Program-made: the position numbers and the translations under genes
Shown here: one piece after another, positions 35,106-62,586 of the stretch
Position numbering within the stretch: the first letter of the stretch is position 1
Layout of the letters: each line of letters begins with the position of its first letter
Origin: Helicostylum pulchrum
Taxonomy: Eukaryota; Mucoromycota; Mucoromycetes; Mucorales; Mucoraceae
Direction: 5' to 3'
NCBI GenBank assembly: GCA_025677825.1
Contig: JAIXMO010000025.1
Span: 248,001 to 312,000, forward strand
DNA length: 64,000 bases
The notes under the pieces: model-generated
The model's database searches: none
What the model saw: the letters and a program-made list of their open reading frames with translations, nothing else
Told to the model about the DNA's origin: nothing

Positions 35106-35891
35106 TTAGTGCTTAGGATTTGCTTCTAAATCCTCAGTTTCAGTGTTACTGATAATATAATTTTTATTCGAGCTGCCTTGAATCCAAGTAGACCCGTAAC
35201 AGGCAGCAATGATGGCAGCGATTCTCACGGGCAAGTAGGAGAAGAAAAACATAATGACATTCAGTAACGTTATGTTAAACGAATTAGAATAAGCAACACT
35301 TATGGTGGCGATAGCTGAAATTAAATGGAGTCCAATGAAGGCCATCATAGTAGATCCAGTTTTGCGATTAAAGTATTTCGTATTCATGAAATAAAGCAAT
35401 AAAGTGACAGCAATAAATCCCCAGATCGAATACGGCAATGACAATCTGAGGTGTAAGATACTGTCGCTGATTTCGCTAGTATAATTATAGACGTCATTAC
35501 TCATCAAAACTGAAATGGCGATGCCAATAGCTACAGTAACAACCATCCAGACATAACCGACATAGACCACGAGTTTATGACCTTGAACGGCTTTGGGTAT
35601 AATGCAATGAAAAGCATAAAATATAGCGAAAAAAGCAAACGCGAGTTCAACACCGAATAACACATTTGATACGTAAAATGGGACAACTGGAATAAACATT
35701 GCTGAAATATAAATGGCATTGGAAATAAGTGAAGCCAGAGAGGACAGAGAAGCACTTCCAGCGATAATAGCTGCTTTAGTAGAGCGGTATTTGTAAACAT
35801 AGAACGCAGTTACGAGAAAAGTAAGAACAGAAGCGGCCAAAGAAACACCAAACCAGATTAACGTTATGTTGGCTGTTTCAGCTGTATTCAT
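35106..35891 (-). CDS. 7TM family type I, copy a (uncharacterised multispanning protein)
   Basis: Intronless, 261 residues, not a family I recognise. Seven hydrophobic segments of 20-25 residues are evident, starting LIWFGVSLAASVLTFLVTAF and ending FFFSYLPVRIAAIIAACYG. Positively charged loops follow TM1 (YKYRSTKAA), TM3 (PKAVQGHK) and TM5 (NTKYFNRKTG), so the positive-inside rule predicts N-out/C-in. Family signatures are VVYVGYVW at TM4, YGSTWIQ after TM7 and the tail motif DLEAN. About 95% identical by eye to copy b at 37304-38065. Upstream it faces a truncated type II gene. A receptor or transporter role is possible but not shown. Confidence 0.8.
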   Translation of the reverse strand: MNTAETANITLIWFGVSLAASVLTFLVTAFYVYKYRSTKAAIIAGSASLSSLASLISNAIYISAMFIPVVPFYVSNVLFGVELAFAFFAIFYAFHCIIPKAVQGHKLVVYVGYVWMVVTVAIGIAISVLMSNDVYNYTSEISDSILHLRLSLPYSIWGFIAVTLLLYFMNTKYFNRKTGSTMMAFIGLHLISAIATISVAYSNSFNITLLNVIMFFFSYLPVRIAAIIAACYGSTWIQGSSNKNYIISNTETEDLEANPKH

Positions 35892-36565
35892 TTTTGTTTT
35901 ATTTTATTTTTTTTGGAAAAAGTAAAGAAATATATTTCAGATCAGGTATTTTTTTTTTCAAGTTTTATATCAGTTATAATGCTGCTCAGCAATTCATGTT
36001 ACACCATTGGAACGTCGAGTAGGCGTGTGGCGACAATAGATATACGAACCTTGCATTTCTGGTAAAAACAATAGGCTGATAAGTAGGAATACATATATTA
36101 CATAATGAGTTATTACATCAACAATGGTATCCGTACCTTCTGGAAAGCATTACGCTGTTTTTATTCTATAAAAAAATATTGCATACCTATAATGTGAATA
36201 ATTGAAGAAAAGTGTTAACATATTTATTTTTTTATGGTAACATTAACATATGATAAAATTAAAACTGATACTGTTGTAACGTCAATATCTTAACGCACCT
36301 TCTTAAAATATTATAGAGATATAAGACTTCGTCTTTTTTAGAAACGAATCACCACCCACCATAAAAAAACAGCTCAGCGTCAATGTTGCATTTCGATTAG
36401 GATTTTGGTGAAAGTTTACTCAGCAGGGTGTTCAAAGTTTTACCACCTTCAATCATAATAAACCAGTACTTATATTTCTTCTGTAATAGTTTTAACCCTA
36501 CTTTCCCATTCCCTTTCTTTTTTTTTTTACCAAAAAAAGGTTCTTTCATTCTATCTAAAACTAAA
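35892..36565. promoter_or_regulatory. Divergent region between type I copy a and the type II fragment; duplicated elsewhere
   Basis: 35892-36365 matches the reverse complement of about 55690-56166, upstream of type I copy c: shared blocks include TTAAAATATTATAGA, the 36150-36210 stretch, and CGACGTTCCAA on the reverse strand. 36366-36565 matches the reverse complement of 58755-58960, upstream of the intact type II gene (CAGCTCAGCGTCAA, then CTAAAACTAAAATGCA). It is therefore a mosaic of type I and type II promoters. Confidence 0.65.
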
Positions 36566-36682
36566 ATGCATCCGGGCCAAGTTAGAGCCTTCAGAGAGTT
36601 TGCATATGTTCCAATAATAATGAGCAACATCATATGTGTATTTACAGGTTACCTGTTCTTTATAAAATCAAAACAAGAAAAA
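36566..36682 (+). pseudogene. Truncated type II 7TM gene (N-terminal fragment)
   Basis: From ATG 36566 the frame reads MHPGQV, then VPIIMSNIICVFTGYLFFIK, matching the first about 38 residues of the type II gene at 57954-58754 (MHPSQF, then VPIIMSTILCLLTSYLFFIK). Homology stops after the first membrane segment; the sequence then jumps to block A DNA. A deletion has removed the remaining about 85% of the gene. Confidence 0.75.
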
Positions 36683-36965
36683 AAAATAGACTACTATAGC
36701 TGTTTCAATGTTTATATTAACGTGTTACACCAATGTTATTAATAACATTATACGATCTTAGCCACTTATGCTTAGCGGAAAACGAAACATCTAGAAAAAC
36801 AGTGACCCAATTGTGTTGTTCTTCAAATGATTTTTCTTAGAGAATTATTGTAACATAAGCGAAAGATTTGCTGACTTAAGGTATGGACGTATCTGTATGT
36901 AGAAGAATGTGGCATACACGTAGCACAGAGTTTTCGAATGATTTGGGGTTTAGCGAATTATTACT
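36655..36965. repeat. Block A, left copy (inverted relative to 57385-57700)
   Basis: About 310 bp match the reverse complement of 57385-57700 closely, e.g. ATAGACTACTATAG, TTTCAATGTTTATATTAACG, TTCTTCAAATGATTTTTCTT and AGAATGTGGCATACACGTAG. Non-coding. In both places it lies next to remains of a type II gene. Confidence 0.8.
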
Positions 36966-37303
36966 ACACAGACAGAATGTTTGATGCATTATTAAAGTGT
37001 AACAAAGTCAGATCAATAATCTTTTTCTTCCCAATAAGATCTGGTGCTATTTTTTACGGGTAACTATTTTTAAAATTATGTATGTTATCTTAATACAAGA
37101 AGAAAGCGCTGTCAAGCTTAGTGACTATAATTAAAAGATACAACTATCATTATAATTTTTGCTTTCGAAAGAAAGAAATAAGATAGTTGTATAGCTAGAA
37201 TGCTCTTTTATTATATGAAGTAAGAACCGTTTATACTGGTTGATTGAAAAATATTAAAGGAAGGTATAAAAAGTAATGCAAATTACCGAGTTGTTTTGGT
37301 TGA
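36966..37303. other. Intergenic region carrying a duplication boundary
   Basis: No gene. 37120-37300 contains a block (AAAGAAATAAGATAGTTGTA, then TAGAATGCTCTTTTATTATA) repeated directly at 38265-38390, followed by the shared type I 3' flank. Confidence 0.6.
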
Positions 37304-38065
37304 TCAGTGCTTAGGATTTGCTTCTAAATCCTCAGTTTCAGTGTTACTGATAATATAATTTTTATTTGAGCTACCTTGAATCCAAGTAGACCCGTAACAG
37401 GCAGCAATGATGGCAGCAATTCTCACGGGCAAGTAAGAGAAGAAAAATAAAATGGCATTCAGTAACGTTATGTTATACGAAGTAGAATAAGCAATACTTA
37501 TGGTGGCGATAGCTGAAATTAAATGGAGTCCAATGAAGGCCATCATAGTAGATCCAGTTTTGCGATTAAAGTATTTCGTATTCATGAAATAAAGCAATAA
37601 AGTGACAGCAATAAATCCCCAGATCGAATGAAATAATAATAACATGAGGTGTACGGTACTTTCGGCCATTCCGCTTATCAAAACTGAATCGGCGATGCCA
37701 ATAGCTACAGTAACAACCATCCAGACATAACCGACATAAACCACGAGTTTATGACCTTGAACGACTTTGGGTATAATGCAATGAAAAGCATAAAATATAG
37801 TGAAAAACGCAAACGCTCGCTCAACACCGAATAACGCCTCTGTTACGGGAAGTGAGACATCCGGAATAAACATTGCTGAAATATAAATGGCATTGGAAAT
37901 AAGTGAAGCCAGAGAGGACAGAGAAGCACTTCCAGCGATAATAGCTGCTTTAGTAGAGCGGTATTTGTAAACATAGAACGCAGTTACGAGAAAAGTAAGA
38001 ACAGAAGCGGCCAAAGAAACACCAAACCAGATTAACGTTATGTTGGCTGTTTCAGCTATAATCAT
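37304..38065 (-). CDS. 7TM family type I, copy b
   Basis: Intronless, 253 residues from ATG 38065, the position equivalent to the start of copy a; the frame is open further upstream but there repeats the non-coding flank of copy a. Seven predicted membrane segments, VVYVGYVW, YGSTWIQ and DLEAN are all kept. Differences from copy a cluster in the second and fourth loops, which are extracellular in the predicted topology: the TM2-TM3 loop reads MFIPDVSLPVTEALFG, and the TM4-TM5 loop is about eight residues shorter. Function unknown. This is a tandem, very recent duplicate of copy a. Confidence 0.8.
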   Translation of the reverse strand: MIIAETANITLIWFGVSLAASVLTFLVTAFYVYKYRSTKAAIIAGSASLSSLASLISNAIYISAMFIPDVSLPVTEALFGVERAFAFFTIFYAFHCIIPKVVQGHKLVVYVGYVWMVVTVAIGIADSVLISGMAESTVHLMLLLFHSIWGFIAVTLLLYFMNTKYFNRKTGSTMMAFIGLHLISAIATISIAYSTSYNITLLNAILFFFSYLPVRIAAIIAACYGSTWIQGSSNKNYIISNTETEDLEANPKH

Positions 38066-39261
38066 TTTTGTTTTATTTTGTTTTTTTGGAAAAAGTAAAG
38101 AAATATATTTCAGATCAGGTATTTTTTTTCCAAGTTTTATATCAGTTATAATGCTGCTCAGCAATTCATGTTACACCATTGGAACGTCGAGTAGGCGTGT
38201 GGTGTCATTAAATCTAAGAACATTACCTTTCTGGTAAAAACGAAAGGCTAATAGGATTACATAGTGATTATAATTGAAAGATACAGCTATAATTATACTT
38301 TTTGTTTTCGGAAGAAAGAAATAAGATAATTATATAACTAGAATGCTCTTTTATTATATGAATTATGAATCATATATACTGATTGTAATTATCTGTGATG
38401 TGATCAAGCGCATGTACAGATATATATTCTCATATATATTTACACACACTTGATTATCTCACGACTTTAACCATTATGAATAATACATATTTATTTTAAC
38501 TAATCTTTATAGACATCGTCCAGCAATAACTGATGTCAGGGTACAGGATTAGAGGGTTTTCATAATTGCATGTCTTGTCCGAAAGACTGGATTATATAAT
38601 CGCGGCAGGAAATTAGATATGGAAAGTGTGGCACTTTAGCGTGGCACAAACACACATATTTTATCTGTAAACTCAGACATGAAAAAGCTATACAAACCTC
38701 TACCTTTTTCACGTTAAATAAACTGCTATCTGATTTTGCGACTGATTACTTTCTCGTATCTTTGTGTTTTTATTTTATTTTTGAATCTTTACTATTTCAT
38801 AGCTCAGATTCCACAATCTGTCATTGTGTTGTATTCAAGTAATATTAGAGTGATATAATTTAGACATATTTTATACAAGATACGCGCTTATCAACTTACA
38901 TAAAACTATATACAGATATAATATTATCTACATATTACTGTGATACTTTACCACTACGTTATAATGATTGATAAATATATATAGAATAAAGTATGGTTTA
39001 ACAGCTAACTCGGATCCTTAAGTGATACAATGATACAAGTAACAACCATTTCTATAATCAGTATGTTCATCCATAAAAGGATTATGTATCGTCTACATTC
39101 TCTTTTAGCTTATAATCATGTCATGTTTAATTTATCTTATTATTATTTCCTAAGGTCTATATAAAGGGCTTGTATTTTATTAAATAAAACGATATACCTT
39201 TTTAGTCTGATAATCTTTTAGTTATTTTTCTTTTTATTTTTATTTTTTCGATATTTATTAT
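38066..39261. other. Intergenic region between 7TM copy b and the CSC1-like gene
   Basis: 38066-38250 repeats the upstream flank of copy a and 38265-38390 repeats 37120-37240. The remainder to 39261 is AT-rich with no coding signal seen. Confidence 0.55.
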
Positions 39262-42200
39262 TTAAATATCACGCATTGTAGTATGTTGTGCAGGCTGATA
39301 ACGCTGTTGCTGAGACTGGTAGATGTTGGCCATTTCAATTGCGTTGGAACTACCGAGTTGGCGTGGATCGTGAGTACGATACGCTTGTCCAGCAACAAAA
39401 TACTCCATATCATTACTCACAGCATAATTTGTTTTTGGTGGATTGGCAGCTTTGTACTGCTGTTGATGGTGTGTATTATAATAGTACAAGGAGGGATCAT
39501 CGCCATCGTCCGCAATATCCATCATCGATGATGGATTCACTAAGGGTCTTTGTGGCGAGTAAATATCAGCAGTATTATTATTCGCATATGACTTATTAAG
39601 CGAGGTAGATAACCTGTTACTTAATTGTTTTAAAGGATTTAAACTGCCAGTTGTAGGAGAGAAACTATTACTATAATAACTTGTCTTTGGTGGATCAACC
39701 ACGTTTGAACTTTCTTCGTCTTCGTTAAATTTATACAACCCTTTGACACCTTCAGTTGAATCGTCCAACTCTAAATCTTCTTTTGCTATACTTTGAAACT
39801 GCAGTTCACCACCCGTTGCATTTTGTAGTTGGATCACAGATAAATGTCGAACGCTCTTTTGACGAGTCATGCGACTCATAAATGGTTTCTTTGCTGTCTT
39901 TCCTGTACCGTATAATTTTGGAAGTAAATGACGAACACTTTCGTGGACCATAGGGATAGGAAGTTCGGCAAAAAAAGCAGGATCACCAAACCTGAAACCA
40001 ACGAAATTCTTACCCTTCTTCGCACCTTCTTTTGTTGACATGAACTTATCTCCATTATAATACGTAGTTGAAAGTCCGTCGATCTTTGGTTGATAATAGT
40101 ATACACGATGATCAAATCTACGACTACAAATGATTTTAAAGATAATTGTAACGAGAGGTAAAGGAGCAACAGCAAGAGAAGGAATTCGAGCACTTTTTAG
40201 GTTAAGAACACCTATCATGACAATTTGAAACAATACACAAGAAACTAATAATCGGTTGAATAACAAACGCCATATTTGACCTCCTGTTTCTACATTTGTC
40301 ACATAGACGTACCTGGTCACAAATAAAAAAAAAGAGTCAGTTTTCTTTTTTCTGTATTAAATTAAATATATGTCTTACATGAGCAAATATTTAAAAACCA
40401 TTGTTGCTAGTAAAAAGTACATCATTGTAAAAGGTAAAACTAAGGGCGCAATAACTGAGTAGACGAGACCTACAGTGAAAAAGAAGAGTAGGACGTTGTA
40501 GAATAATGGAAAATCAAACGCTGTAGGACGAGTAAATTCTGTAGGGAAAAAAAGGTTAGTCTAACTGAATAAATATATCATGTGTGTTTTATAATTCTAC
40601 CTTGTAACTGGCGTGGACTTGGTCTGGTAAACAATTTTCTACGTTATAAAAGCACATTTGTTAAAACAATAAAGTACACACACATAAAAAAAAGGTGGCA
40701 AATGTATACCTTAGAGTTACAGAGAAAAGAACAACAATTTGAGCCAAATCGACAATCACACCAAGACCTTTCAAGGATACATAATTTACCCAATATGTCG
40801 AAACATCTACACATGTATTTTTAACTTTTATTGTATCGCCAATAAATCCTAATATGTTCTTACCACTGAGATTTTTTGCTACTTGTGTCAAATTACCACT
40901 CATCGTCAAAAAAAACTGATTCACCGTCAATGTAGTGCCATTTTGTACGGCTTCATGTATTTCAGAATACACTGCAATCAAAGTAGAAGATACTGTAAAC
41001 ACCAACAAATTGTTAATAATAAAGAACACGAATAGCTTGGCAAGTACTTGTCTATCCAAACTAGTGCCAGTCATATAACCTTGTTGTTGCGACATGAACC
41101 TTAAAATCTTTGGTAAAATAAAAAAGAAGATTGCCATCACAATAGGAGTGAACCAAGAACTAAGTAAAGATATAAACATGGGGTGTTCTTTCATAAACAC
41201 TTTAGAGTTTGGAAAAAGTCTTAAAAAGTCCTTTACGTTGGAAGAAGCAGAGAGAAAACTGGATGGAATAAACCAAAAGAAAACAAACGCGTAGAATATA
41301 AACGAAGCAATCAGTCTTTTTGATCTTCGAATGTGTTCGTTCATGGATAGGTTGGACCAGATGATATCTTTTGGTTGCGGTGCAAGTTCAATTGTAGGCT
41401 GAATTCCTTCGCCTATTTTTTTTGGTAGTGATAATAGTGGTGAAGAAGAAGAAGCTAAATGTTTAGCATTGGCATGTGCCCAAGCTACTTTATCATAAGA
41501 TATCCATCCATAATTGGTTTTTTTCATTGAATATATTTGAGATCGAGCAAGTGTAATCTTTTCCTGAAGGTCTTGAACTCGTCCTGAATAGTAATCAATG
41601 GCATCTACTTTTTCGCCTCCACAACATCCAAAAAAACTACCGCCAATTCTTTCCAGAGGTCTTTTACCTTGTACTACAGTACCGTCTAAATATACAAAAG
41701 AACGTTTTTGTGTAAGAAAAAAAAACACATAATGCTGACATTGTAATTTTACGCACGTACCTTTAAGATGATTTGATAAAATAACTTCCAACTTCCTTAC
41801 TGCTTCTTCATGCTCCTCTACATAGTTTGCTAAATCCGAATTTTGAGTACCTATACAAACTTGTTGAGCTGGGTATTTTAAACCCATTGAATTGACCCAT
41901 TCGGTTAAAGCTTGATCTGATCTCAAGGCTGTAGGTACATTAAAGATAATTAGAGTTCTAGCATGCATTGATTTTTGATAGTCTTCACTTTCGAAATAAT
42001 CCTGTCTAAATTTTACATAGTCTACATAAAATCTCCATAATGACACATAGATCACAATTGAAAATATCCAAGTTCCTCCTGCGTGACACCAATACCAATT
42101 CAGATTTCCATTTGAAAAATGAAACTTTCCATCATAATAATTAATTGTTGATATCGATAAGAATTCTACTCCTGTAGATGGTGGCCATTCACTATCGTTT

Positions 42201-42897
42201 TTTTTTTAGAAATGGTTCCCTTTTATATTCTTTTCCTGAGGTTAAAAATAGACATTTTGTTGCGTAGTACTTACCCTGTAAATGATGTGGCCACAATATT
42301 AATTGGTATAATAACACAAACGCCCACCAAAGTCATAACGTATAACATCCTTCGAATCATTCGAATAAATTTTATAAAAAAAGTTGCGTCGTATCCAATT
42401 TTTTCAATTAGTACAGAGTCTGGCGTATACATGACCGGTCTAAACCAAGCAAAAAAACCTATCAATTTGTGTTCATTAATTCCCTGATTAAGCCACAAAA
42501 ATTATGTAGCTAAATAACCCCATACCATGTCCTATTTCTGGTGGTTGTTTCCTGTATTACAATGGGGTCATATAAAATATTGAAAATAAGTATAAATGTA
42601 GAATAAAATTCAACATATATTTATGTTTTTTAAGCCCTTACGTTTTACTAGAATATTTATATTTTGGTGCATATACAACTATGCAAACGTAATTTTTTTA
42701 TATTTATTAATTTAGTTGTTGATCTGCGTTTTTTTTTTATTGTTTACGAACTTACGTGAATTATTCGGTCGTAAAATATTAAATAAAACTAGAACCCCTA
42801 CTGCGATAGCAGCGTTTATTCCCAACTGTGTCGCCATACCGGTTAATGATAGCTGTGAATCCTCTGTTTTATTACTGTTGCTCGAATTACTACTCAT
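39262..42897 (-). CDS. CSC1/OSCA/TMEM63-type osmosensitive cation channel
   Basis: Nine exons (42897-42756, 42678-42642, 42551-42526, 42458-42275, 42191-41761, 41685-40710, 40638-40601, 40538-40379, 40312-39262) join to 1014 residues. The N-terminal membrane segment is followed by LVYAPKYKYSSKT, GFFAWFRPVMYTPD, the cytosolic RNA-recognition-like part (RTLIIFNVP, then GKRPLERIGGSFFG), the channel region (IPSSFLSASSNVKDFLRLFP, then SWFTPIVMAIFFFILPKILR) and a long polar C-tail with Gln/Tyr-rich end. Known: this family forms mechanosensitive, calcium-permeable channels of plasma or internal membranes. Exons 2, 3 and 7 are only 37, 26 and 38 nt; without them the frame fails. Confidence 0.88.
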
Positions 42898-43203
42898 TGT
42901 ATTAAGTTTCTTAAAATAAAATGATAAGGGAGAGAAAAAGAAACAACAGAGAAAATAGGAACAAATAAATCTTCAGAAAAAAATAGGAGCTTTGGGAGGA
43001 CAAAGAAATTATTGTCTTAGACTTTTTAATTGAATTAGTGTGTGTAACACTTTAGGGTATAAAATATCCCTCATTGCGTAAAAAGTACATGACCGTTGTT
43101 GTTTATAGGAGAAACGTCAACATAGTACCATTTTCAATTTTTAGAACCTGTTTAATCACCAAACCACAACAAGAAAAAAGAGTTTTGCTTTCCAAAACAA
43201 GCA

Positions 43204-43263
<60 letters not shown>

Positions 43264-44317
43264 GAGCTGCTTAATTTTCGTAGTTCGTGCGACACATGTC
43301 TAGTGGATTTTTCTGTACGAAATCAATCCAGATGTTAAAATTCCAGATATAACATGGTTTCTTTTAGTTGATGTCGGCATTGCGATACTTATTCAATTAT
43401 ACTTTATACCAAAAAGATCAATTGTATCTAAACAATTTTGCATTTCGTGAAAGATCTGTGCTGCTGCCACATTTACTGTTCTAATTTTCTATTATTAGAT
43501 GCAGCAACACAATTGAGCATTAGTTAATTTTTCAAGCACAGTTACCATACTAACAATGTCTTTTATTCATTTTATTCTCTTTTCAGAATAAGCTGAATAA
43601 AAGATACAGAAGTATAGAAGCAAAGTTTAAATATAATTTTCTACTCATTTTGAAACCATCAGTTTCAAACATCACTCTTTGAGATTGCTTTTTTTTTATT
43701 GCTGATATGATTTAACATTTGAGTTTTACAGTAAGTGGATAATACTATAAAATATACAGTTACTAAGTATTATATATGTAACTTTTATTCTTCGAGTTTA
43801 AAAACTTTCAAAATTATATCCTTAAAAAGCCATTGTATGTACGATTGATAAGTGCAAAATTTTAGCTGGTAAGCAGGGGGTGGAACAATGTTTAAGGTTT
43901 TTGATAGTAATAATTTAAGTTACAATATGTGTTATAAAACTGATCGCATTACGCAGAATGGCTAAACCAGGGCTAACTACATAATGCCCTCGCACAAAAT
44001 AAGTTCTGTAAGTTCTGTAATTTAGAAACTATTAATGATCTAATTTTTCTTCTAATTAAAAGAGAGACAGAGATACAAATTGCACAAACATATTTTCTAA
44101 CACAACATTGTCAAATATATTATCCATGTGGTAATAACTTTGTCCGAATCTTCGGTGGTCTGGTATACAATGTAACCTATAATGAGATTCCGTTTATGGG
44201 CTCCGAAATATCAATACATATTACACTGCATTAGAAAAAAAAAACTCTTTTCTCTTTTCAATTTTTTTTTTCTTTACTTTAGACTAACAAACGAAATATA
44301 CAAAAAAAAAAAAAATA
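42898..44317. promoter_or_regulatory. 1.4-kb divergent region between the CSC1-like and MFS genes
   Basis: Holds the AAAG microsatellite (43202-43263) and a stop-free stretch at 43304-43450 that reads like a degraded membrane-protein end (see findings). Otherwise AT-rich. A pyrimidine-rich leader with poly-A (44240-44317) precedes the MFS start. Confidence 0.5.
43202..43263. repeat. (AAAG)n microsatellite
   Basis: About fifteen perfect AAAG units. The Lys/Glu/Arg-repeat reading frame through it is not a gene. Confidence 0.95.
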
Positions 44318-46404: not shown

Positions 46405-46525
46405 CTTAATCATAATAATAATCATAATAATAAAAACGACCTCTTTATGGAAGTATATCTCAGAGAAAAAAATTCTCTCTCTCGCTTTAATACAAAACAA
46501 AAATAAGCGAGAGAAGAGAAAGTGC

Positions 46526-51869: not shown

Positions 51870-52364
51870 ATGTCATCCATTCGTTTTATCCAAGCATTCG
51901 TTTTCGCATTATTCTTTTGTCAATGTTTAGCTCAAATCGGTACAAAAATCTTGTCACCTGAAACCAACGCTACAGTCAGTGTAGGAGACAAGGTACAAAT
52001 TCTATATACGTATGGTAATATGGGTAATGGTAGTTATGTGGTTGATTTGGCTCTTTGGAAGGATAATGCTGCTGAAGACTTGGCACAAGATATTGAAACC
52101 AATGTCGTCGTCAAGAGCGGTAACTCTGCAGGCACTAAACTCGAATTCGTTTTAAACTCTACTTATGAATGGACTGTGCCTAAGGGTCTTGCTGATACTG
52201 TTTACTTGACCGTTACAACAAAACCTGAATTGGACTCTCAAGTTGGTTTAAATATGCGTTCTAGTCCTATTAGACTTCATATCAGTGCTGCTCTTACTAA
52301 TTTACCTATTCAAAAACTCAGCCTTTTAGCCTTGGCAATGGGTATTCTTTTCTTTACTTGTTAA
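51870..52364 (+). CDS. Small secreted, probably GPI-anchored, cell-surface protein
   Basis: Intronless, 164 residues. Signal peptide about 1-21 (FVFALFFCQCLAQ); beta-rich body with ILSPETNATVSVGDKVQILY, similar to the Kre9/Knh1-like beta-sandwich N-terminal domain found in fungal surface proteins; three N-glycosylation sequons (NAT, NGS, NST); and a hydrophobic C-terminus (KLSLLALAMGILFFTC) of the type removed for a GPI anchor. Likely at the plasma membrane or wall. I do not recognise a specific orthologue, and a secreted effector-like role cannot be excluded or shown. Confidence 0.75.
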   Translation: MSSIRFIQAFVFALFFCQCLAQIGTKILSPETNATVSVGDKVQILYTYGNMGNGSYVVDLALWKDNAAEDLAQDIETNVVVKSGNSAGTKLEFVLNSTYEWTVPKGLADTVYLTVTTKPELDSQVGLNMRSSPIRLHISAALTNLPIQKLSLLALAMGILFFTC

Positions 52365-52518
52365 ATAAAATCTTATATATTTTTTTTTTCTCCCATTGAT
52401 CAATGTCCTTTGTGTTACTATCTCTGTATCACGTGTGCTTAGTTCTGTCCTCACATTTTACACACAAAATAAAAATAAAACTGCCCTCTTTTTTTTTCCC
52501 CTTTATTTTCCATAGAAC

Positions 52519-53177: not shown

Positions 53178-54432
53178 TCTCCAGGATACATGTAGTTATC
53201 CATCCTGTCACATTTTCACTGTAAACCCTAGCCTTGTAATAATACTCTAATTAATTATGCGTTGTATTTATCACACACTCACTTTTTCTTTTTCTTTTTG
53301 TAATTATTTATCATCATTTATTCTTTTTTGACTGACAAGAGAGGTCAAAAATGACCTTTTCGACTGAATCTGATGGTGATATTTAACTGAGAAGAGTTCA
53401 TTCATAAATTATAGCCAACTCTTTTCATTTCTTGTCCTTTCCCCAAAATATTACGTCTTAAAATAAAATCAGAAAGTTTTCTATTGTTGATGATGTATTT
53501 ATTTGGTAGTACTTTTGAGCTGATTACATGGTTGTGAAGGTTATTCCGATATGCTACCATTAATTCGAGTATATTGCCGTACCAGACATAGTTTCTACTC
53601 TCTATAATATATTTAGATTTTTACTGGTAAATATTCAAAGTACAAAAGAACTAAAAATAAAATTCATTCGTCCCTATTCCTTAAAAAAGCTGTAGAAGAT
53701 TGCTCTGAGATCAAATCACACAATACGTAGCTTTCAGAGGGGCTTACACGTATAAAACCCTTGGGGCTGCTTGTGACACACCCTAATATTTTAGTTTTTT
53801 TTTTCTTACCTGCATACTTGCTGTAAAATACGACGTAGCATATAAGCATTTCTTAACCGAACTGACTTGTCTAAAACATTTTAAATGCAGAAAAAAAAAC
53901 TTGTAGTATATCCATTTGATTGCTTTAGTGTTAAGTGACCACTTCGCTATCTTTGTCTGACACGCTGAGCTCAATTATTGCTGCCTTATAATGTATCACA
54001 GTATACACTGATGTTATTATTTAATAACTATAAAGTAAGCAGGAAAAGAAATACACGTTTTTCTTATTTTTAACAAAAGTCGTACGCAGATCAATATACT
54101 TTTATATTTTGAAGTGAAAGTAAAATAACTACCATCGTTTAATAATTTTTTAACTCACAAATGCATTGAATAGCGTATATCCAAATATACATAAAAAGGG
54201 ACTACGTCGCCTTATGTATCCACGAGAATGAAACTTAAACCTTATTATACGTTCGTCGATTCTTCCATTTGTACGACTTAATTGTACCAACGAGCTTTCC
54301 TAAACCTATAAAATGCCACCCCTTTTTCTTTATTTTGATATTTCAAATCAAATCAGATTAAGCACAGATCAAAATACACAAACTAAAAGCTTGCTGTTTA
54401 ATATATTTAAACAATACCCTCATTCTATCAAC
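53178..54432. other. Intergenic region before the 54-62 kb 7TM array
   Basis: AT-rich with no convincing gene. A small perfect inverted repeat AGGTCA/TGACCT lies at about 53341-53358. Short frames near 53664-53974 (minus) have no recognisable features. Confidence 0.5.
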
Positions 54433-55215
54433 ATGTTTCTAATATCTGAAGCCCCCGAATTTACTAAATGGTTTTGCGTTTCTATTGGAACCTCTCTTTT
54501 CTTGCTTGTTTGTGTAGGATATTGTTTTCGAAAACCGATCTATCGTACTAGCAATTTATACAGTTCCCTCATCTCTTCCATAGCCACCGCTGTCCCCTTA
54601 TTTATTACTGTGTTTTATAATAACCCTGATGTGGCATATAACTCATTATTTTTAATCTACGGGTATCAACTCATATCTGATTCGATTACCATTCTATATA
54701 CCTTTCAATGTATACTAAAAAAGAGACAAGGTTTTGGAAAGGCGCTTGTGTATGTGGGTTATGTGTGGGTTCTCTTCACTACCAGTATTTTTTTCGCTCT
54801 TGCCATTATGTTGAAAAAGAAAAACTGGAGGTTCGATTACGAAGAAATTTACTACGTTCACAACCCTGTATCAATTACAATACTTTTAATTTTTGGGTTT
54901 ATTTTGATCCTTTTGTTTTTATTTTTTATAGTCAACAGAAAAATGTGCACACAAGTTTTCAACTATATGATTACTTATATCACGCTAGTTGCCATCGCGT
55001 TTCTGGGTATTACAATTCTTATGTCCGTCCATATTCAAAATTTTGAAGTATTTGATGCGATTTCTTTTATATTTATTGATTTACCTGTCAAAATCATGAT
55101 CTTTATTACAGCTTATTATGGAGATATTTGGGTTAATGGATCTTACAATGATACGTATGCAAACTATGAAACTTGCTTTGATATTTTGGAGAGTAATCAG
55201 TATAGGATCGCATGA
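54433..55215 (+). CDS. 7TM family, divergent member (copy e)
   Basis: Intronless. I start at ATG 54433 (260 residues, MFLISEAPEF), matching the 253-266 residue length of relatives; an in-frame ATG at 54313 would add 40 residues. Seven hydrophobic segments with the family signatures ALVYVGYVW at TM4 and YYGDIWVNG after TM7. The TM2-TM3 region and the tail (YETCFDILES) differ strongly from type I, and the DLEAN motif is absent. Positive residues after TM1, TM3 (LKKRQGFGK) and TM5 (VNRKM) keep the N-out/C-in prediction. Function unknown. Confidence 0.75.
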   Translation: MFLISEAPEFTKWFCVSIGTSLFLLVCVGYCFRKPIYRTSNLYSSLISSIATAVPLFITVFYNNPDVAYNSLFLIYGYQLISDSITILYTFQCILKKRQGFGKALVYVGYVWVLFTTSIFFALAIMLKKKNWRFDYEEIYYVHNPVSITILLIFGFILILLFLFFIVNRKMCTQVFNYMITYITLVAIAFLGITILMSVHIQNFEVFDAISFIFIDLPVKIMIFITAYYGDIWVNGSYNDTYANYETCFDILESNQYRIA

Positions 55216-55525
55216 TGTTTATAAGTATTGAAAAACAAAGCTATATGACCAATACATTCTCTAAATTATACGCAATATCATTTTATGCTCTACTAATATA
55301 TCTTTAAAAACTTAATAAAATATTTTAAACATGTAAAATAATATTTCATGCGTTATTTGCAGTAAAACTTTGTTAAGGGAAGGATAAATGCTGTTTTTCG
55401 AATACATAGATTTGTTTTATTTTAACATACTCTTTATTTTTTATTTTACAGATTATACAGTGACACAATCTATTATAAATCTCGTTAATGGTACTCTTTA
55501 TGTTTCTACAAAGGTATCATTGTCA
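55216..55525. other. Spacer after copy e
   Basis: AT-rich, with no gene seen; short Phe/Tyr-rich frames only. Confidence 0.4.
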
Positions 55526-55636
55526 GCGACTTGCTCGCTGTATCCATATTTCAGTAAGCGTGATCTGAGAGTCATTGTCACATTTTATATTAGCAGGTCT
55601 TGTGTCTCCCAGATTTATATCATCGATTTTTTCTGT
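55526..55636 (-). pseudogene. Type II 7TM gene remnant (C-terminal tail only)
   Basis: The plus-strand sequence TCTGAGAGTCATTGTCACAT and its surroundings match 57975-58075, the end of the intact type II gene, in the same orientation. It encodes on the minus strand the acidic tail around DIxLGDTRPAN. The rest of the gene is gone. The remnant lies head to head with type I copy c, as in the other modules. Confidence 0.7.
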
Positions 55637-56166
55637 CATCCAATCTAGATTTTCATCAAAATTCAAATCGAAATACACGATTAATGCTGAAGTGTTTTTC
55701 TTATGGTAGGTGGGTGATTCGTTTCTAAAAAAAAGACAAATTCTTATGTCTATATAATATTTTAAGAAGGTGCATTATGATACTGATGTTGCAGCGGTAT
55801 CAGCTTTAATTTTATCATATGTTATAATGAACCTTACCAGAAAAAAAGATAACGTTTTTCACATTATAGGTATACAATATGTTTTACAGAATAAAAACAA
55901 CGCAATGGTTTCCAGTGCGGATACAATTGTTGATGCAATAACTCACTATGTAATAACTCACTATGTAATATATGTATTCCTATCAGCCTTTTGTTTTTAC
56001 CAGAAAGGTAAGCTTCTTAAATATGTTGTCACCACACGTCTATTCGACGTTCCAATAGTGCAACATCATTGCGGAACTTAAAGAAGATTTATATAAATAC
56101 TAAAAAAAAATATCTGATCTGGAATATATTTCTTTACTTTTTCCAAAAAAACAAAATAAAGCAAAA
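55637..56166. repeat. Type I promoter block, right copy (inverted counterpart of 35892-36365)
   Basis: About 55690-56166 aligns with the reverse complement of 35892-36365, e.g. GATTCGTTTCTAAAAAA, ATAATATTTTAAGAAGGTGC, TTTAATTTTATCATATGTTA and the ATTCGACGTTCCAATAGTG segment. Frames inside it are non-coding by comparison of the two copies. Confidence 0.75.
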
Positions 56167-56952
56167 ATGAATATAGCTGAAACAGTCGAAATAAAGTTAA
56201 TCTGGTTTGATGTTTCTTTGGCCGTTTCTGTTCTTACTTTTCTCGTAACTGCGTTCTACGTTTACAAATACCGCTCTACTAAAGCAGCTATTATCGCTGG
56301 AAGTGCTTCACTGTCCACTCTGGCTTCACTTATTTCAGATGCCATTTATATTTCGGCAATGTTAACTCGGGATGTCCAACTTTCCGTATCAAATGTGTTA
56401 TTAGGTGTTGAACTCGCGTTTGCTTTTTTCGCTATATTTTATGCTTTTCATTGCATTATACCCAAAGCCGTTCAAGGTCGTAAGCTCGTGGTCTATGTCG
56501 GTTATGTCTGGATGGTTGTTACTGTAGCTATTGGCATCGCCGTTTCAGTTTTGATGAGCAATGACATCTATAATTATACTAACGAAATCAGCGACAGTAC
56601 CTTACACCTCAGACTGTCATTACCGTATTCGATCTGGGGATTTATTGCTGTCACTTTATTGCTTTTTTTCATGAACTTGAAAGACTTAAATCTCAAAACT
56701 GGATATACTATGTCAGTCTTCATTATACTCCATTTAATTTCAGCTGTCATCACCACAATTATGGTTTATTCTGATTTCTACAACACAATGGTACCGAATG
56801 CCATTATCTTTTTCTTCTCTTACTTGCTCCTGAGAATCGCTGCCATTCTTGCTGTTTATTATGGTTCGACTTGGATTCAAGATAATAACAATTATGTTGT
56901 TAGCAGCACTGAATCTGAGGATTTAGAAGCCAATCAACCGGCAAATCCGTGA
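56167..56952 (+). CDS. 7TM family type I, copy c
   Basis: Intronless, 261 residues, closely related to copies a and b (identical YKYRSTKAAIIAGSASLS and VVYVGYVWMVVTVAIGIA stretches) but diverging after TM5 (FMNLKDLNLKTGYTMSVFII). The TM7 motif reads YYGSTWIQ, and the tail keeps SEDLEAN. Membrane topology is as for copy a. Both coding part and upstream 0.5 kb are inverted duplicates of the 35-kb locus. Function unknown. Confidence 0.8.
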   Translation: MNIAETVEIKLIWFDVSLAVSVLTFLVTAFYVYKYRSTKAAIIAGSASLSTLASLISDAIYISAMLTRDVQLSVSNVLLGVELAFAFFAIFYAFHCIIPKAVQGRKLVVYVGYVWMVVTVAIGIAVSVLMSNDIYNYTNEISDSTLHLRLSLPYSIWGFIAVTLLLFFMNLKDLNLKTGYTMSVFIILHLISAVITTIMVYSDFYNTMVPNAIIFFFSYLLLRIAAILAVYYGSTWIQDNNNYVVSSTESEDLEANQPANP

Positions 56953-57384
56953 TATTAACGGTTATAAAAATAAAAAATAAAAAAATAGCAAAGAAATTAT
57001 CAGACTTTAAAAAGGTTATATCGTTTTTATTATGAAAATGTATGTGCCTTATATACATATTATAAGTTAAATAAGCGCTTATCATTAATGTGAAACTTGG
57101 ACATCTCTAGCAATACATTAATGAATGAGCAATTGGAAAAATTATATAGAATTCGGTAGAAGGACAATGACAATGACAGCGATGACTTGTGTGGCTTCTT
57201 GAATAAAAGACCCAGTATAGAGGCTTGTAGCTTATAAATAATGTGACATTTATGGAAACCAGTTATATGATCTTGTAAAGCGCTTAAACAGTCTTTATAA
57301 TTATATTATCAAATCGATAGAACAATAGAACATATCTGAGATTATGTGTCAAAGATACTATATTAGTATATAGCTTACGTAAGT
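56953..57384. other. Spacer between copy c and block A
   Basis: AT-rich, with no gene and no match to the left locus that I could see. Confidence 0.4.
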
Positions 57385-57700
57385 TCGCTAAACACCAAAC
57401 CATTTGAAAACTCTGGGCTACGTGTATGCCACATTCTTCTATATACAGATACGTTCATACCTTAAGTCTACAAATATTTCGCCTATGTTACAATAATTCT
57501 CTAAGAAAAATCATTTGAAGAACTTGCAACACATTTGGGTCACTTTTTTTTTCTAGATATTTCGTTTTCCGCCACACTTTTGTTACGCAAAAGTGGCTAA
57601 GAATGTATAGTGTTGTTGTTAATAACATTGATGTAACACGTTAATATAAACATTGAAACGACTATAGTAGTCTATTTTTTTCTTGTTTTAATTTAAGCTA
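57385..57700. repeat. Block A, right copy
   Basis: Inverted counterpart of 36655-36965 (see there). It contains an internal hairpin, CCACACTTTTG...CAAAAGTGG at 57572-57597, missing from the left copy, which has a deletion at that place. Confidence 0.8.
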
Positions 57701-57760
57701 TTGCTGCTACAGCTGCTTGTATATCTCTTCGAGCGCTAATGGTGTTATTTTCTTTCTCTG
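57693..57760 (-). pseudogene. Possible type II 7TM remnant (TM7 end)
   Basis: The minus strand reads RRDIQAAVAAIA and then a stop, resembling ALEYIATAIAAL in TM7 of the intact type II gene nearby. The match is short, so this is tentative; its position between block A and a type II gene supports it. Confidence 0.35.
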
Positions 57761-57953
57761 TTACACATCTTTTACTGTAAAATTTTGGTATGCTAATTTT
57801 TTTTAAACAAATTATTCGTATACAGTTTTGTTTAAATACAAGTTTATTTCTATTTCTATTTTACAATTAAATTACAAATCACACAAGGATATAATCTAAC
57901 GTAATTCAACATTCTATAAATAGTCGATGGTATCCTTTTTTTCTGTGAAATTA

Positions 57954-58754
57954 TTACGTTCGATAACCTCTTCGCTCCGCCAAGTCTTCAGTAAGAGTGA
58001 TCTGAGAGTCATTGTCACATTCTATATTAGCTGGCCTTGTGTCTCCCAACTCTATATCATCGATTTTTTCTTCCGCCTTATCTGAAAAACATAAAGCAGC
58101 AATAGCAGTGGCAATATACTCTAAAGCATTACCAAGAAAATAAGTCGCGTAATCAGATAGTTTTTTAGCTGCTTGAGAATAATTATAGACTGTAAAGAAC
58201 GTAGCAGAAATAGTATTGAGTATTGCATAAGCAACCATAATTTTACAAATATCGCGACATCTTTTGTAGTAAATTACAATAGCAGTCCAAACTGTCAAGA
58301 TAAAACCCCAATTGCAAAGTTCGTATAAAAAGAGAGGATTGTATTTTTCGGAAGAAAATTGGTGATAACTGTTTTCTCTTGACGTGAACGCGATAATAAC
58401 TCCTAAACTAACGTTTACGAAAGCCCAGATCCAACCAAAATACAAAAGACAGCGCACCAGCATATTTTTCTCTTTTTTCACGAAATGATAAAAGATATGC
58501 CATATTGTTAGGTACGCAAAGGAACGGGATAGGCCAAAAAGAATGATGCTGCTAAATAATGCAGGAAAAAAAAAAAAAAGAATAATGCTTGAGAAAAATT
58601 CAAGTGACGCCGAAACCCAAGCAAATCCTCTAACAGAGATTTGAAACTTTGATTTAATAAAGAAAAGATAACTTGTGAGGAGACATAGGATTGTGCTCAT
58701 TATTATTGGAACTTGTGCAGAATAAATGGGTGTTATAAATTGGCTTGGGTGCAT
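57954..58754 (-). CDS. 7TM family type II, intact member
   Basis: Intronless, 266 residues. Seven hydrophobic segments (VPIIMSTILCLLTSYLFFIK first, ATYFLGNALEYIATAIAALC last), with basic loops after TM1 (KSKFQISVRG), TM3 (HFVKKEKNMLVR) and TM5 (YYKRCRDICK), again N-out/C-in. TM4 carries LLYFGWIWAF, the counterpart of VVYVGYVW in type I. The cytosolic tail is acidic (EEKIDDIELGDTRPAN, then a Glu/Arg-rich end). Head to head with type I copy d (688 bp between starts). Same superfamily as type I by length, topology and TM4 motif; function unknown. Confidence 0.75.
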   Translation of the reverse strand: MHPSQFITPIYSAQVPIIMSTILCLLTSYLFFIKSKFQISVRGFAWVSASLEFFSSIILFFFFPALFSSIILFGLSRSFAYLTIWHIFYHFVKKEKNMLVRCLLYFGWIWAFVNVSLGVIIAFTSRENSYHQFSSEKYNPLFLYELCNWGFILTVWTAIVIYYKRCRDICKIMVAYAILNTISATFFTVYNYSQAAKKLSDYATYFLGNALEYIATAIAALCFSDKAEEKIDDIELGDTRPANIECDNDSQITLTEDLAERRGYRT

Positions 58755-59442
58755 TTTAGTTTTAGGTAGATTTGAAGTACTTTTTTTTTTTTCAAAAAAG
58801 AAGAAAGGATATAAGAAAGTAAATCTAGAATCGTTATTAAAGAGAAATAAATTGCTTTAGGCTCGAATGTGGTACAATTTTGAGCAATATGCTGAGCAAA
58901 TTTTTACCGAGATTCAACGTTGATGCTGAGCTGATTTTTTAATGACGGTGATTCGATTATAAAATATTAGGTATTATATCTATATGACGTTTTAATAAAA
59001 CATGTTACAACATTGATGTAACGAGAATAAAACAGTCAATTCTATCAAGTGTTACGACTTTTATAATAGACATGTTGTCCAAAAAAAAAAAAAAAAAAAA
59101 ATAACATTTTTCTTTGATCAGTTATTACCTAACATTCTATGTAACGCCTTTTTGCATTTTTTTACAGCATAAAATCAGTGTACCAACTTTCATGAAAAAT
59201 TCAAATTACTGATATACATAATAATTTACTTATAATATGTGTATCTTGTCTGTCTTTTTTGACCAGAAAGAAACTTTTCTTATAGCCATTCGCCGCTGTC
59301 ACATGTCGCTTCAATGAATGTTCCATCTGGGTGACACGATTTGCTAAGCAAGGACTTAAAAAGAAAATTTGGATTTTTATCACATAAATACAAAAAAAAA
59401 ACATGGTTGTTTCCTTTTTCCTCCTAAAAAACAACACCACAA
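58755..59442. promoter_or_regulatory. Divergent region between type II and type I copy d
   Basis: 58755-58960 matches, inverted, the 36366-36565 region upstream of the type II fragment, including CAGCTCAGCATCAA on the reverse strand. The rest contains poly-A (59081-59100) and a short frame on the minus strand (59201-59461) that overlaps the copy d start and lacks support. Confidence 0.6.
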
Positions 59443-60231
59443 ATGTCTTTGGATATAACAATTAGCGGCCTGTCTGGATGGTCGTATGCTTCTTTAATAA
59501 CTTCTATTCTTACTTTTCTCATAACTTCGTTCTACGTTTACAAATACCGCTCTACTAAAGCAGCTGTTATTGCTGGAAGTGCGTCCATATCAGCCCTGGC
59601 TTTGCTTATTATCAACGTCATTTTTTTTTCTTTCGCTAACAACCAAGATATCAAAATTTTTGCCATATTTGTGCTTCGAGGTATCAACTACGCATTCGCT
59701 TTTCACACTATATTTTATGCTTTCGACCGCATTATTTGCAATGGCAGTCAAAATAATAAACTTGTGGTCTATATTGGTTATATGTGGATGGCAGTAACTA
59801 TATCCGCTTCGCTCGCCTGCACAATTTTGTTAGATGGAAATGCCTATTATGACTACAGGGTCTTAAAGGATACCTTCAACCTCTTGCTATTGACAGTATA
59901 TTCGATTTGGGGATTTATCGCTGTTACTTTATTACTTTATTTCATGAATAAGAAACACCTTAATCCCAAATCTGGATCTACTATGTTGGCATTTATTGGT
60001 CTCACTTTGGTTGCAGCTATTACATCAACAGTTTTGTTGAACATATATGCAAATGACGTAACGGGAGGTGTTTCGTTTTTCCTCGAAGAATTAACCATCA
60101 AGGCAGCTATCCTTATTGCTGCTTGTTATGGGCCTACTTGGATTCAAGTTCATTCTATTGAAAATAATGGTAGCAAAACAGAAATTGATGGCGATTTAGA
60201 AGCCAACCAAGAGCCAAATCCTAACCACTGA
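59443..60231 (+). CDS. 7TM family type I, copy d
   Basis: Intronless, 262 residues. Same architecture: ITSFYVYKYRSTKAAVIAG after TM1, VVYIGYMWMAVTI at TM4, YSIWGFIAVTLLLYFMN at TM5, CYGPTWIQ after TM7, GDLEANQEPNPNH at the end. The TM2-TM3 loop (ANNQDIKIF) and the TM4-TM5 loop (LDGNAYYDYRVLKD) differ most from the other copies, as expected if these extracellular loops face changing ligands or are least constrained. Function unknown. Confidence 0.8.
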   Translation: MSLDITISGLSGWSYASLITSILTFLITSFYVYKYRSTKAAVIAGSASISALALLIINVIFFSFANNQDIKIFAIFVLRGINYAFAFHTIFYAFDRIICNGSQNNKLVVYIGYMWMAVTISASLACTILLDGNAYYDYRVLKDTFNLLLLTVYSIWGFIAVTLLLYFMNKKHLNPKSGSTMLAFIGLTLVAAITSTVLLNIYANDVTGGVSFFLEELTIKAAILIAACYGPTWIQVHSIENNGSKTEIDGDLEANQEPNPNH

Positions 60232-60826
60232 TCAATCAATAATTTACTTACTTATACTTTAATAATAATCTCGAAGTAATCAAACAGTACACGCAGTATT
60301 TACTTAATATAATATAATAATCTCATAGTTAAATAAACATATATACATATTATTTCTCCTCTCGAAAGTAAAAAAAAAATACAGTTACATATTTAATTAT
60401 TATTGCTAACTAAACTTGATATTTATCGCATAAATAAACCATAAAAGTAGTGCTAAACAAATATTCCTGTGAGAAAAAAAGCGCCATATTTCGTGAAGTA
60501 GATTTTTTTTTTTATTGATCTGAGAATATTACTGTTACACATTAATTTAACAAAGCTTCTGTTTTTGTAACCATGCTAAGCACAAAAGTATCTGATGCCA
60601 CTTTTACCTGATTTCAAGCCTAGTTGATGTTACATATATCTTCAGTTTCTGTAAGGGTAAAAAGGTGATACTAGGTTTTTTTTAAAAAAAAAAATTGAGA
60701 AAGAAAAAGCTTTATCATTTTAGAAGGTAACAAAAATATCAGGGTGGTCGATTGTTACATTAGTCACATCATCCCTCACCCTTTTGATATCAATATGTTA
60801 CCTTTTTATAAACAAAGGATATAAAC
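60232..60826. other. Spacer between copy d and the frameshifted copy f
   Basis: AT-rich, with no gene. A small hairpin TTTTTTT/AAAAAAA occurs near 60677-60693. Confidence 0.4.
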
Positions 60827-61503
60827 GTGGAAGCATTACAAGAAAGCGCCTTTATTTATGCGCTATTCTCTCTTATTTCCGTGGCTATGGTTTTTGGTTA
60901 CGAAACCAACTTTTATATTGAACTTTATGCGTTGTATGTGCTTCGCGGTATTCAATACGCCTTTGCATTTCATACAGTGCTCTACGCTTTTCACTGCAAC
61001 ATTGTTTCGAGTCGATGGAGAAGATAAATCTCTGGTCTATATTGACTATATTTGGACGCTTGTTACTCTGGGTGTTTCGCTTGCAGCCACACTTACGTCA
61101 AGAATCCACGGGCGGGAAAATCGGGGTGACGCATATGTGGAGAATTTGTCTAACCTTGTAGCAGTTACAATGATTTCAAGTTGGGGATTTATTGTAGTTA
61201 TCGTATTACTTTACGTCAGAAACAAGCAGCGTTTTGTAGTTAGGCGGTGGGGATACTGTCGTAATCTATGTATATCTTGTTTTAGTTCAAGCTATTACTA
61301 CTACAGTTCTCATATTTTCTCCTATGACTGATGTAGGTGTACACCCTGCTATTTTTTTCTTTCTTACTGACTTGACTATGGATATTGTCATCATTATTAC
61401 GGCTCATTTGGTCCTGTTTGAGTTGAAGATAAATCGAAGAAAAAAAATAGTAAATGCCAATAGAAGATTTGGTGATTTAGAAGCCAATCGTAGATCCAAG
61501 TAA
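60827..61503 (+). pseudogene. 7TM family type I pseudogene, copy f (two frameshifts)
   Basis: Three frames in sequence carry family blocks: LRGIQYAFAFHTVLYAFHC in the first, then SLVYIDYIWTLVTLGVSLA and SSWGFIVVIVLLYVRNK after a shift near 61010, then AIFFFLTDLTMDIVIIITAH and GDLEANRRSK after a shift near 61240. The TM1 region is missing at the 5' end and no intron signals fit the shifts. YG-x-x-W after TM7 is also lost. Inactive by two frameshifts and a 5' truncation. Confidence 0.8.
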
Positions 61504-61802
61504 ATGATCAAATAACTCAAATGATATCCATACACTTTTATATTTTATATACTTTAACCTATCCAAGCAATGCTTTTTTAGTTAATAAAATAACTACAAG
61601 TTAAAATATAATTTTGTTCAGTCTTTAAACGTCAATTGTGGGGAGGGGGGAAAGGAACATTTTAGAAAAAAATAAACATTCACAAAACAAATATGTCAAG
61701 ACAACTCGTGCCATACACTGAGTAATTTATATTACACACTGGTATACTTGCGCAACATACAATTTAGATTATTAGAAGCGTTTACCATTTTTTTTTTCGT
61801 TG
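61504..61802. other. Spacer between copies f and g
   Basis: AT-rich, with a G-rich stretch near 61640; no gene. Confidence 0.4.
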
Positions 61803-62586
61803 ATGAAACCCACTCTCTCTCTTTATATTTTATATTCAACAACTTCTCTATTTCAAAATTTTAAACTTACGCAATTGGTATTATCTATTGCTTTTATCAC
61901 AGCCATCACACTATGTATATTTATGCATAAACAGTCTTGATCCAGGACTGAATTCAGCGCGACATCCGCTCTTATTCTTAGCTGTATCGTTATTGCGTAT
62001 ATCGATGACTCGGACGACCAATATAACGCCTTATTTTTGTTTCATGGTATTAGCTTTTACACTATAGTCTACGTCCTGCATCGCGTAATAAAACAAACGC
62101 AATGAAGAAGCATAATAGGTGTCTTTCTTGCGTACCTCTGGATGCTTGCAATTCTTGGGTTTTCAATAGTTATTACAGCCAAGGTGAAACTGGAAGATTG
62201 GAGTTTTAGGTTCGACGATACTAGCGTAACTTGCGACACTCTTCTAGTTGATGGATCCAATCGGGGGACCTTTAACGCTTATTGCACAAGAACAAAAAAA
62301 AGATATGAATTCAAAAACAAGAAGAACGACAATGACTGTTTATACAGTACTTGTTTTAACCGCAGCCAGATGTACTACAATCGCTTTAAATGTTCCCATC
62401 GATTCTTTTAATGTACTGAACGGTATTTGTTTGCTACTTGTTGAGTTGCCAATAAAGATGGCATGTTGTTATGGTCCTCAATGGATTTCGGTTCCTGCAG
62501 ATGGTGATTTGGAACGGCCTGAAACCGCTTACGGCACTTACAACGTCTATAACGAAATAGAAGGGAATATACTCTTCAATAAATAA
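61803..62586 (+). pseudogene. 7TM family pseudogene, copy g (stops and frameshifts)
   Basis: Degraded family blocks appear in order: a hydrophobic start, then TSALILS and LFLFHGISFYTIVYVLHRV (TM3), then GVFLAYLWMLAILGFSIVI (TM4), then TVYTVLVLTAARCTTIA (TM6), then LLLVELPIKMACCYGPQWIS (TM7 signature), and a tail with GDLE. In-frame stops near 61940 and 62105 and frame changes near 62110 and 62280 break it. The last 112 codons (from about 62248) are still open, so a short product is conceivable but unlikely to be functional. Confidence 0.75.

Follow-up and report, generated by a model that had tools for sequence, protein, structure and literature searches.

A seven-transmembrane, receptor-like gene array in Helicostylum pulchrum with a variable predicted outer half and a conserved inner half

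The genes described here form an array in a 64,000-nucleotide stretch of the genome of Helicostylum pulchrum (assembly GCA_025677825.1, contig JAIXMO010000025.1, positions 248,001 to 312,000 of the forward strand), referred to below as the window and used for all coordinates unless another locus is named. They encode receptor-like proteins with seven transmembrane (7TM) segments. In the copies designated type I, the inner half of the protein is kept and the predicted outward half changes fast, a pattern that resembles the one seen in chemical-sensing receptor families. A first-pass annotation of the window had placed six intact open reading frames (ORFs) of 253-266 residues here. All six are present within this length range, each as one open frame, with the start of g37 corrected to the ATG at 38065 (the ORF start listed further upstream is a TTG). 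The intact copies are the following:

35106..35891, minus strand: g35, intact type I 7TM gene, 261 residues
37304..38065, minus strand: g37, intact type I gene, 253 residues
54433..55215, plus strand: g54, intact divergent copy, 260 residues, with the YG-x-x-W motif kept and without DLEAN
56167..56952, plus strand: g56, intact type I gene, 261 residues (AlphaFold2 model m0ff2b3eded73)
57954..58754, minus strand: g57, intact type II gene, 266 residues (AlphaFold2 model m5ef292096c60)
59443..60231, plus strand: g59, intact type I gene, 262 residues, head to head with g57 (688 bp separate the start codons)

These copies are alike far beyond chance (tblastn E values from 8e-141 to 5e-9); between type II and g54, no match was listed at E 0.01. 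Protein identity reaches 88.5% between g35 and g37 and 78.2% between g35 and g56. The public gene model of g35 (P0002) has 255 residues, a few short of the 261-residue ORF, suggesting that the annotator set a short intron or gap in this gene.

The motifs described in the first-pass annotation were all recovered in the window copies: a motif in transmembrane segment 4 (TM4), Y-x-G-[YW]-x-W, which is found in 20 of 20 rows of alignment A4; YG-x-x-W, carried by every intact window copy but type II; and the tail DLEAN, shared by the four type I window copies. The only invariant columns of A4 (20 sequences) are F, Y, G and W (F94, Y110, G112 and W115 of g56), and four further columns are conserved at 90% or more. 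Within the TM7 helix, each of the 10 type I proteins compared has a charged residue (R, K, E or D) at position 223 (g56 numbering), and position 219 is frequently acidic; we read this as a variable buried charge and perhaps a ligand contact. A sequence search of solved structures returned only M13/fd coat proteins (E 0.1 with alignment A1, 0.005 with A4) over some 21-24 residues of TM4, for example g56 residues 110-130; we took this likeness of a single helix as chance.

The family extends beyond the array. Searches of the genome (32.2 Mb, 168 contigs) with g56, g57, g54, C136, C13 and C81 revealed six more intact relatives outside the window, namely C81 (L005), C136 (L007), C13 (L008), C112 and the C78 pair; the lists of relatives are lower bounds. 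C136 and C13, the two outside members with orthologues at hand, evolve slowly. A phylogenetic tree left 8 of 17 inner branches open, has long branches and supports no claim.

By hydropathy, eight of the nine intact members analysed have seven segments, and type II (57954) has six. AlphaFold2 predicted seven helices in both proteins modelled, the type I g56 and the type II g57 (pLDDT, predicted local distance difference test, 80 and 77, from 9 and 18 sequences, respectively), in line with the seven segments first proposed. The modelled helix arrangement appears rhodopsin/GPCR-like (GPCR, G-protein-coupled receptor), and adiponectin receptors and ion-pumping opsins match it equally well. In a library of viral structures, searched with the type I model, the best matches were a herpesvirus GPCR (E 5e-4) and an uncharacterized pithovirus protein (8e-4), which is fold likeness only. 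Meanwhile, the count of lysine and arginine was higher inside than outside in 17 of 17 members tested, a set that leaves out the near copies or fragment P0001-P0004, P0012 and P0014 as well as C112, C78a and C78b. This agrees with the earlier prediction, from basic residues, of an outer N-terminus and an inner C-terminus (N-out/C-in). Thus, the GPCR-type trait of seven TM helices, N outside and C inside, is present at the level of prediction; no confident match to a transporter or enzyme family was found, and the predicted fold is compatible with seven helices N-out.

Variable outer loops had also been proposed, and the variability extends to the outer halves of the helices. We halved the helices of the g56 model, labelled the halves by the N-out topology, compared their conserved positions, and assessed significance by 229 shifts of the labels; C112, C78a and C78b were not part of these comparisons. 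Among the four window type I proteins, 48% of outer and 80% of inner positions are identical, and no shift reached this difference. The same was true of 10 type I proteins, from which the near copies P0001-P0003 were left out (37% and 69%, 0/229), and of 17 proteins of all types (25% and 44%, 0/229); for g35, g37 and g56 together with a Mucor flavus protein, the values were 64% and 86% (3/229). In the window set and in the 10-protein set, the outer half was more variable in seven of seven helices. The alternating N-out labelling ranked first of the 128 possible in the window array, the 10-protein set, the trio, the g59 orthologues and a set across types, and kept that rank in 200 of 200 trials in which the helix ends were jittered by up to 3 residues (array set and 10-protein set). 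The singleton orthologue sets, of only 3 and 2 sequences, were without this pattern: C136 ranked 30 and C13 ranked 51, and neither reached rank 1 in any of its 200 jittered trials.

Pairwise counts pointed in the same direction. Outer substitutions in TM segments exceeded inner ones in g35-g37 (19:1), g37-g56 (33:13), P0005-g37 (35:14) and g59-P0007 (45:22), with p<0.01 each, as compared with 15:8, 10:9 and 17:16 in control pairs. Of the TM positions compared among g35, g37 and g56, 92 lie on the outer side, of which 32 vary, and 99 on the inner side, of which 13 vary. The ratio of nonsynonymous to synonymous substitution rates (dN/dS, NG86) over the whole gene was about 0.8-0.9 among these three copies. 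Split by face, their pairs, the three youngest, gave outer values of 1.20, 1.29 and 1.80 and inner values of 0.20, 0.58 and 0.48. Pairs with g59 gave 0.84-0.93 outside and 0.35-0.49 inside, the inner intervals excluding 1. These values suggest diversifying selection on the outer half.

The array falls into two groups, at 35.1-38.1 kb and 54.4-62.5 kb, and the genes between them carry other Pfam domains (PHM7/RSN1 channel, MFS transporter, ATG11 and ATG17-like). Five fragments or pseudogenes had been reported alongside the intact genes; four proved clear and one, near 57693, is weak. These and a pair of repeats are as follows:

36566..36673, plus strand: type II N-terminal remnant of 36 codons, head to head with g35, 61% identical to g57 residues 1-36
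55535..55645, minus strand: type II C-terminal remnant, head to head with g56, 75.7% identical to g57 residues 225-261
57607..57726, plus strand: weak, doubtful remnant, TM5/TM6-like and of C81 type (E 1e-4)
60733..61491, plus strand: pseudogene nearest C81 in several frames, a frameshifted or stop-containing copy
61839..62532, plus strand: pseudogene in two frames with stops, a frameshifted or stop-containing copy
37119-37242 and 38262-38385, no strand assigned: 124-bp direct repeats, 87% identical, flanking g37

The matches of the two type II remnants to type II, obtained on small searched stretches, have E values of 5e-10 (36566-36673) and 1e-15 (55535-55645), the latter with 91.8% DNA identity over 85 bp. 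The doubtful remnant is a single 40-residue match to C81 with an internal stop, mostly within a 311-bp duplicated block.

Read in the direction of type I, the array shows the sequence type II, intergenic region, type I, head to head, three times, which defines three homologous units: g57/g59, which is intact, the remnant at 36566 with g35, and the remnant at 55535 with g56. Two of the three are without most of type II. DNA similarity extends over 1.3 kb (83.9% identity) between the regions of g35 and g56 and over 1.07 kb (90%) between those of g35 and g37. Past codon 36 of the remnant at 36566, the DNA runs straight into sequence whose counterpart lies 260 bp past the stop codon of g57; an internal deletion would account for this, with its junction near 36665-36672 across a short A/T-rich similarity. 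A block of about 300 bp without a clear gene has two copies in the genome (36665-36957 and 57384-57694, 86% identical), both adjoining type II positions. Most likely, type I and type II were duplicated together, as a head-to-head pair, and two of the three units later lost type II. An inversion as the source of both type II remnants was rejected, as the DNA matches are better explained by separate deletions, one in each of two duplicated units. For g37, no type II remnant was matched in 38066-39261, and the 124-bp repeats around this gene appear to be the trace of a tandem duplication.

The later-found members elsewhere in the genome lie at these positions:

L042:3846-4592: C112, intact family member
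L043:2844-3713 and L043:6065-7093: C78a/C78b pair, intact members, convergent, 46% identical

One of the C78 pair bears a long proline- and alanine-rich tail. About 580 bp from the start of C136, on the opposite strand, lies a 137-residue ORF (L021:5755-6168) with a signal-peptide-like start, K/R dibasic sites and no Pfam match, speculatively a processed peptide. In the window, 2 kb from g54, positions 51870-52364 encode a 164-residue protein without a Pfam match that is probably secreted and, judged by eye, possibly anchored by glycosylphosphatidylinositol.

The narrow distribution proposed in the first-pass annotation was borne out within the reach of our searches. These covered 5.8 billion proteins, reach only relatives sharing short words, and used the members known before C112, C78a and C78b were found. 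Two profile searches scored 7999 candidates each and a single-protein search with C13 scored 238. They yielded 11 relatives at E<=1, 5 in the second profile search and 2 at E<=10 with C13 (C13 itself and one relative), making 14 different proteins among the candidates scored. Those assigned to an organism belong only to Helicostylum, Thamnidium elegans and M. flavus, all close Mucorales. A Thamnidium type I protein is 62% identical to g59, the M. flavus protein is 73.5% identical to g37, and C136 has relatives at 82-83% (P0013 and the Thamnidium protein P0014). In strain KT1b, the nearest proteins are HPULCUR_001465 (99.2% to g37) and HPULCUR_001458 (98.5% to g56), with locus tags seven apart. 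Our searches of open-licence literature found no title or abstract opening that names the family.

Our favoured reading, held with moderate confidence, is that these proteins form a new, small family of GPCR-like plasma-membrane receptors with fast copy turnover, whose signalling face is conserved while the outer pocket diversifies. Their predicted build is that of a receptor, with N outside, C inside, about 260 residues and no extra domain. The outer half would form a ligand pocket that differs between copies. The conserved inner half, comprising the TM3-TM4 motif F..Y-x-G-Y-x-W, the YG-x-x-W of TM7 and a short acidic tail, would couple to a common partner, with one of several heterotrimeric G proteins the most likely candidate. 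In this way, the array could let the fungus diversify its sensing of small molecules, peptides or partner surfaces with one output kept. The genome holds 11 G-alpha loci over the cut-off, close to the twelve G-alpha reported for Mucor circinelloides, whose receptors await discovery (PMC6936849). A compact family that has no domain name and escapes GPCR surveys based on Pfam would be a source of receptor candidates for this group, and the outer/inner contrast predicts, in a directly testable way, which residues set specificity.

Several observations weigh against this reading. The models are built from few sequences, they match adiponectin receptors and ion-pumping opsins as well as GPCRs, and Foldseek found no match to them in the PDB under E 1e-3. 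Both the N-out labelling and the outer/inner test presuppose the same topology, and an inner N-terminus would make the variable face cytosolic. In the g35-like set (g35, g37 and P0005), the N-out labelling ranks second of 128. In the across-types set (six proteins, slow singletons included), it is also first, by a smaller gap (0.11), so that part of the outer variability is old within the family. The outer excess was not significant in g35-g56 (23:12, p 0.09), g59-P0006 (34:22, 0.14) and g59-C81 (64:52, 0.31), and a Fisher test of outer versus inner replacement excess gave p<0.05 in two of the five pairs tried. The class-changing share of variable TM positions in g35, g37 and g56 is similar on both faces (13/32 outer, 6/13 inner). 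Inner dN/dS intervals include 1 in the three youngest pairs, the outer value for g59-C81 is 0.57 (0.30-0.98), and several pairs also have less synonymous divergence on the inner than on the outer side, a difference that NG86 may distort. Finally, every outer interval in the six type I pairs includes 1, and hence diversifying selection is only suggested.

A more far-reaching version of the receptor reading, which we put forward tentatively, is a new class of fungal GPCRs comparable to olfactory receptors. Here, duplication of head-to-head pairs would supply copies, diversifying selection would act on the outer pocket, and a constant inner face would feed the expanded G-alpha set of Mucorales, with species- or strain-specific hyphal signals as ligands. 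If diversifying selection is true, an early-diverging fungus would possess a chemoreceptor-like repertoire.

The dN/dS intervals leave room for relaxed constraint on the outer half, with the inner half serving a structural or scaffolding role and the array copies drifting and dying. The six type I pairs have outer values near 1, the array contains remnants, and the class-changing share is no higher outside than inside, all as this account would have it. Nevertheless, we consider it rather unlikely: each of the three youngest pairs has an outer point value above 1, charged replacements among g35, g37 and g56 occur at 8 outer and 2 inner TM positions, and in the two singleton sets both halves are nearly alike.

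Copy turnover also fits receptors for self/non-self or mate recognition (allorecognition or trisporoid sensing) rather than general chemosensors. Family searches of the genome for STE2 and STE3, run without a positive control, found nothing, and one report describes Mucoromycotina as without the pheromone-recognition genes of Dikarya (PMC5705715). Class C GPCRs conserved across Mucoromycotina have been proposed as trisporic acid receptor candidates (PMC5705715). Trisporoids are common to Mucorales, yet the array appears to differ between close relatives, and the two between-strain pairs, at 98.5 and 99.2% identity, leave little variation within the species. This explanation is in our view doubtful.

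We judge it improbable that the outer face varies as the target of an antagonist (a toxin, parasite, mycovirus or competitor) on a protein that may be a transporter or a housekeeping membrane protein. Attacked surface proteins would equally be expected to show outer diversification and copy turnover; nonetheless, no transporter or enzyme family reached the cut-off (Pfam, 12 of 12 members; NCBIfam, the 9 members scanned), and the best NCBIfam match, to an antiporter subunit model in one of nine, had only E 3e-4. That these are degenerate microbial opsins (photoreceptors or opsin-related proteins), suggested by a D/E-x-x-x-K in TM7 of some type I proteins that resembled the retinal site, is very improbable and largely refuted, as no Pfam opsin match appeared at E<=10, a genome search for PF01036 without a positive control gave none, and the residue at the TM7 position differs from member to member: R (g35, g37, g56), K (g54, g59), D (C81), E elsewhere, or an uncharged residue (C136, C13).

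The GPCR-like receptors that we favour have no counterpart among named families in our searches, as the first-pass annotation had held: none of the 12 intact proteins found reached the cut-off of a Pfam family, and no GPCR class domain was listed for them at E<=10. Weak Pfam matches among nine members were MASE4, a sensor membrane domain (0.0022), YLATT (0.024) and others, in one member each, and CAA3_Cox_suIV (0.034) in two; the best among the three later members was DUF2231 (0.026). In NCBIfam, they were PRK12604.1, the antiporter subunit model mentioned above, and MAG0110_fam (0.27 in two of nine). We attribute these matches to transmembrane composition and not to family identity.

Compared with known systems, the family differs from each in some respect. 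Receptors of the adiponectin/PAQR type (fungal class VIII) have conserved zinc-binding His/Asp residues, whereas the array family displays no HlyIII match, and its invariant residues, F, Y, G and W only, include neither His nor Asp. Microbial rhodopsins (fungal class IX) are set apart by their conserved TM7 lysine, which the array family lacks, together with any Pfam match. The class D GPCR Ste2 (fungal class I) shares 8% identity in the VIA alignment and, for type I, 16-17% in that of Foldseek, and hmmscan gave no PF02116 or PF02076 (Ste2/Ste3) match in 12 of 12 members at E<=10. The trisporic acid receptor candidates (tar) are likewise lineage-specific receptor candidates of the same fungal group, but belong to class C (7tm_3) and are conserved across Mucoromycotina according to that account (PMC5705715); the array family is neither, with no PF00003 match in its 12 members and the PF00003 matches of the genome lying elsewhere. 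Pth11-like receptors (fungal class XIV) are, in the accounts cited, also an expanded fungal family of 7TM receptor-like proteins subject to duplication and loss (PMC12842992, PMC13308352). They are reported there from Pezizomycotina exclusively (PMC12842992), and the array proteins have neither a Pfam match nor a CFEM match. Recent accounts divide fungal GPCRs into 17 classes with associated Pfam domains (PMC12842992, PMC13308352); one of them counts 141,666 seven-helix fungal proteins outside known classes (PMC12842992), so that an unclassified 7TM family is not rare in itself. What distinguishes this 7TM receptor-like array, which is not a member of a named GPCR class, is its outer/inner contrast, its paired arrangement and its range, narrow so far.

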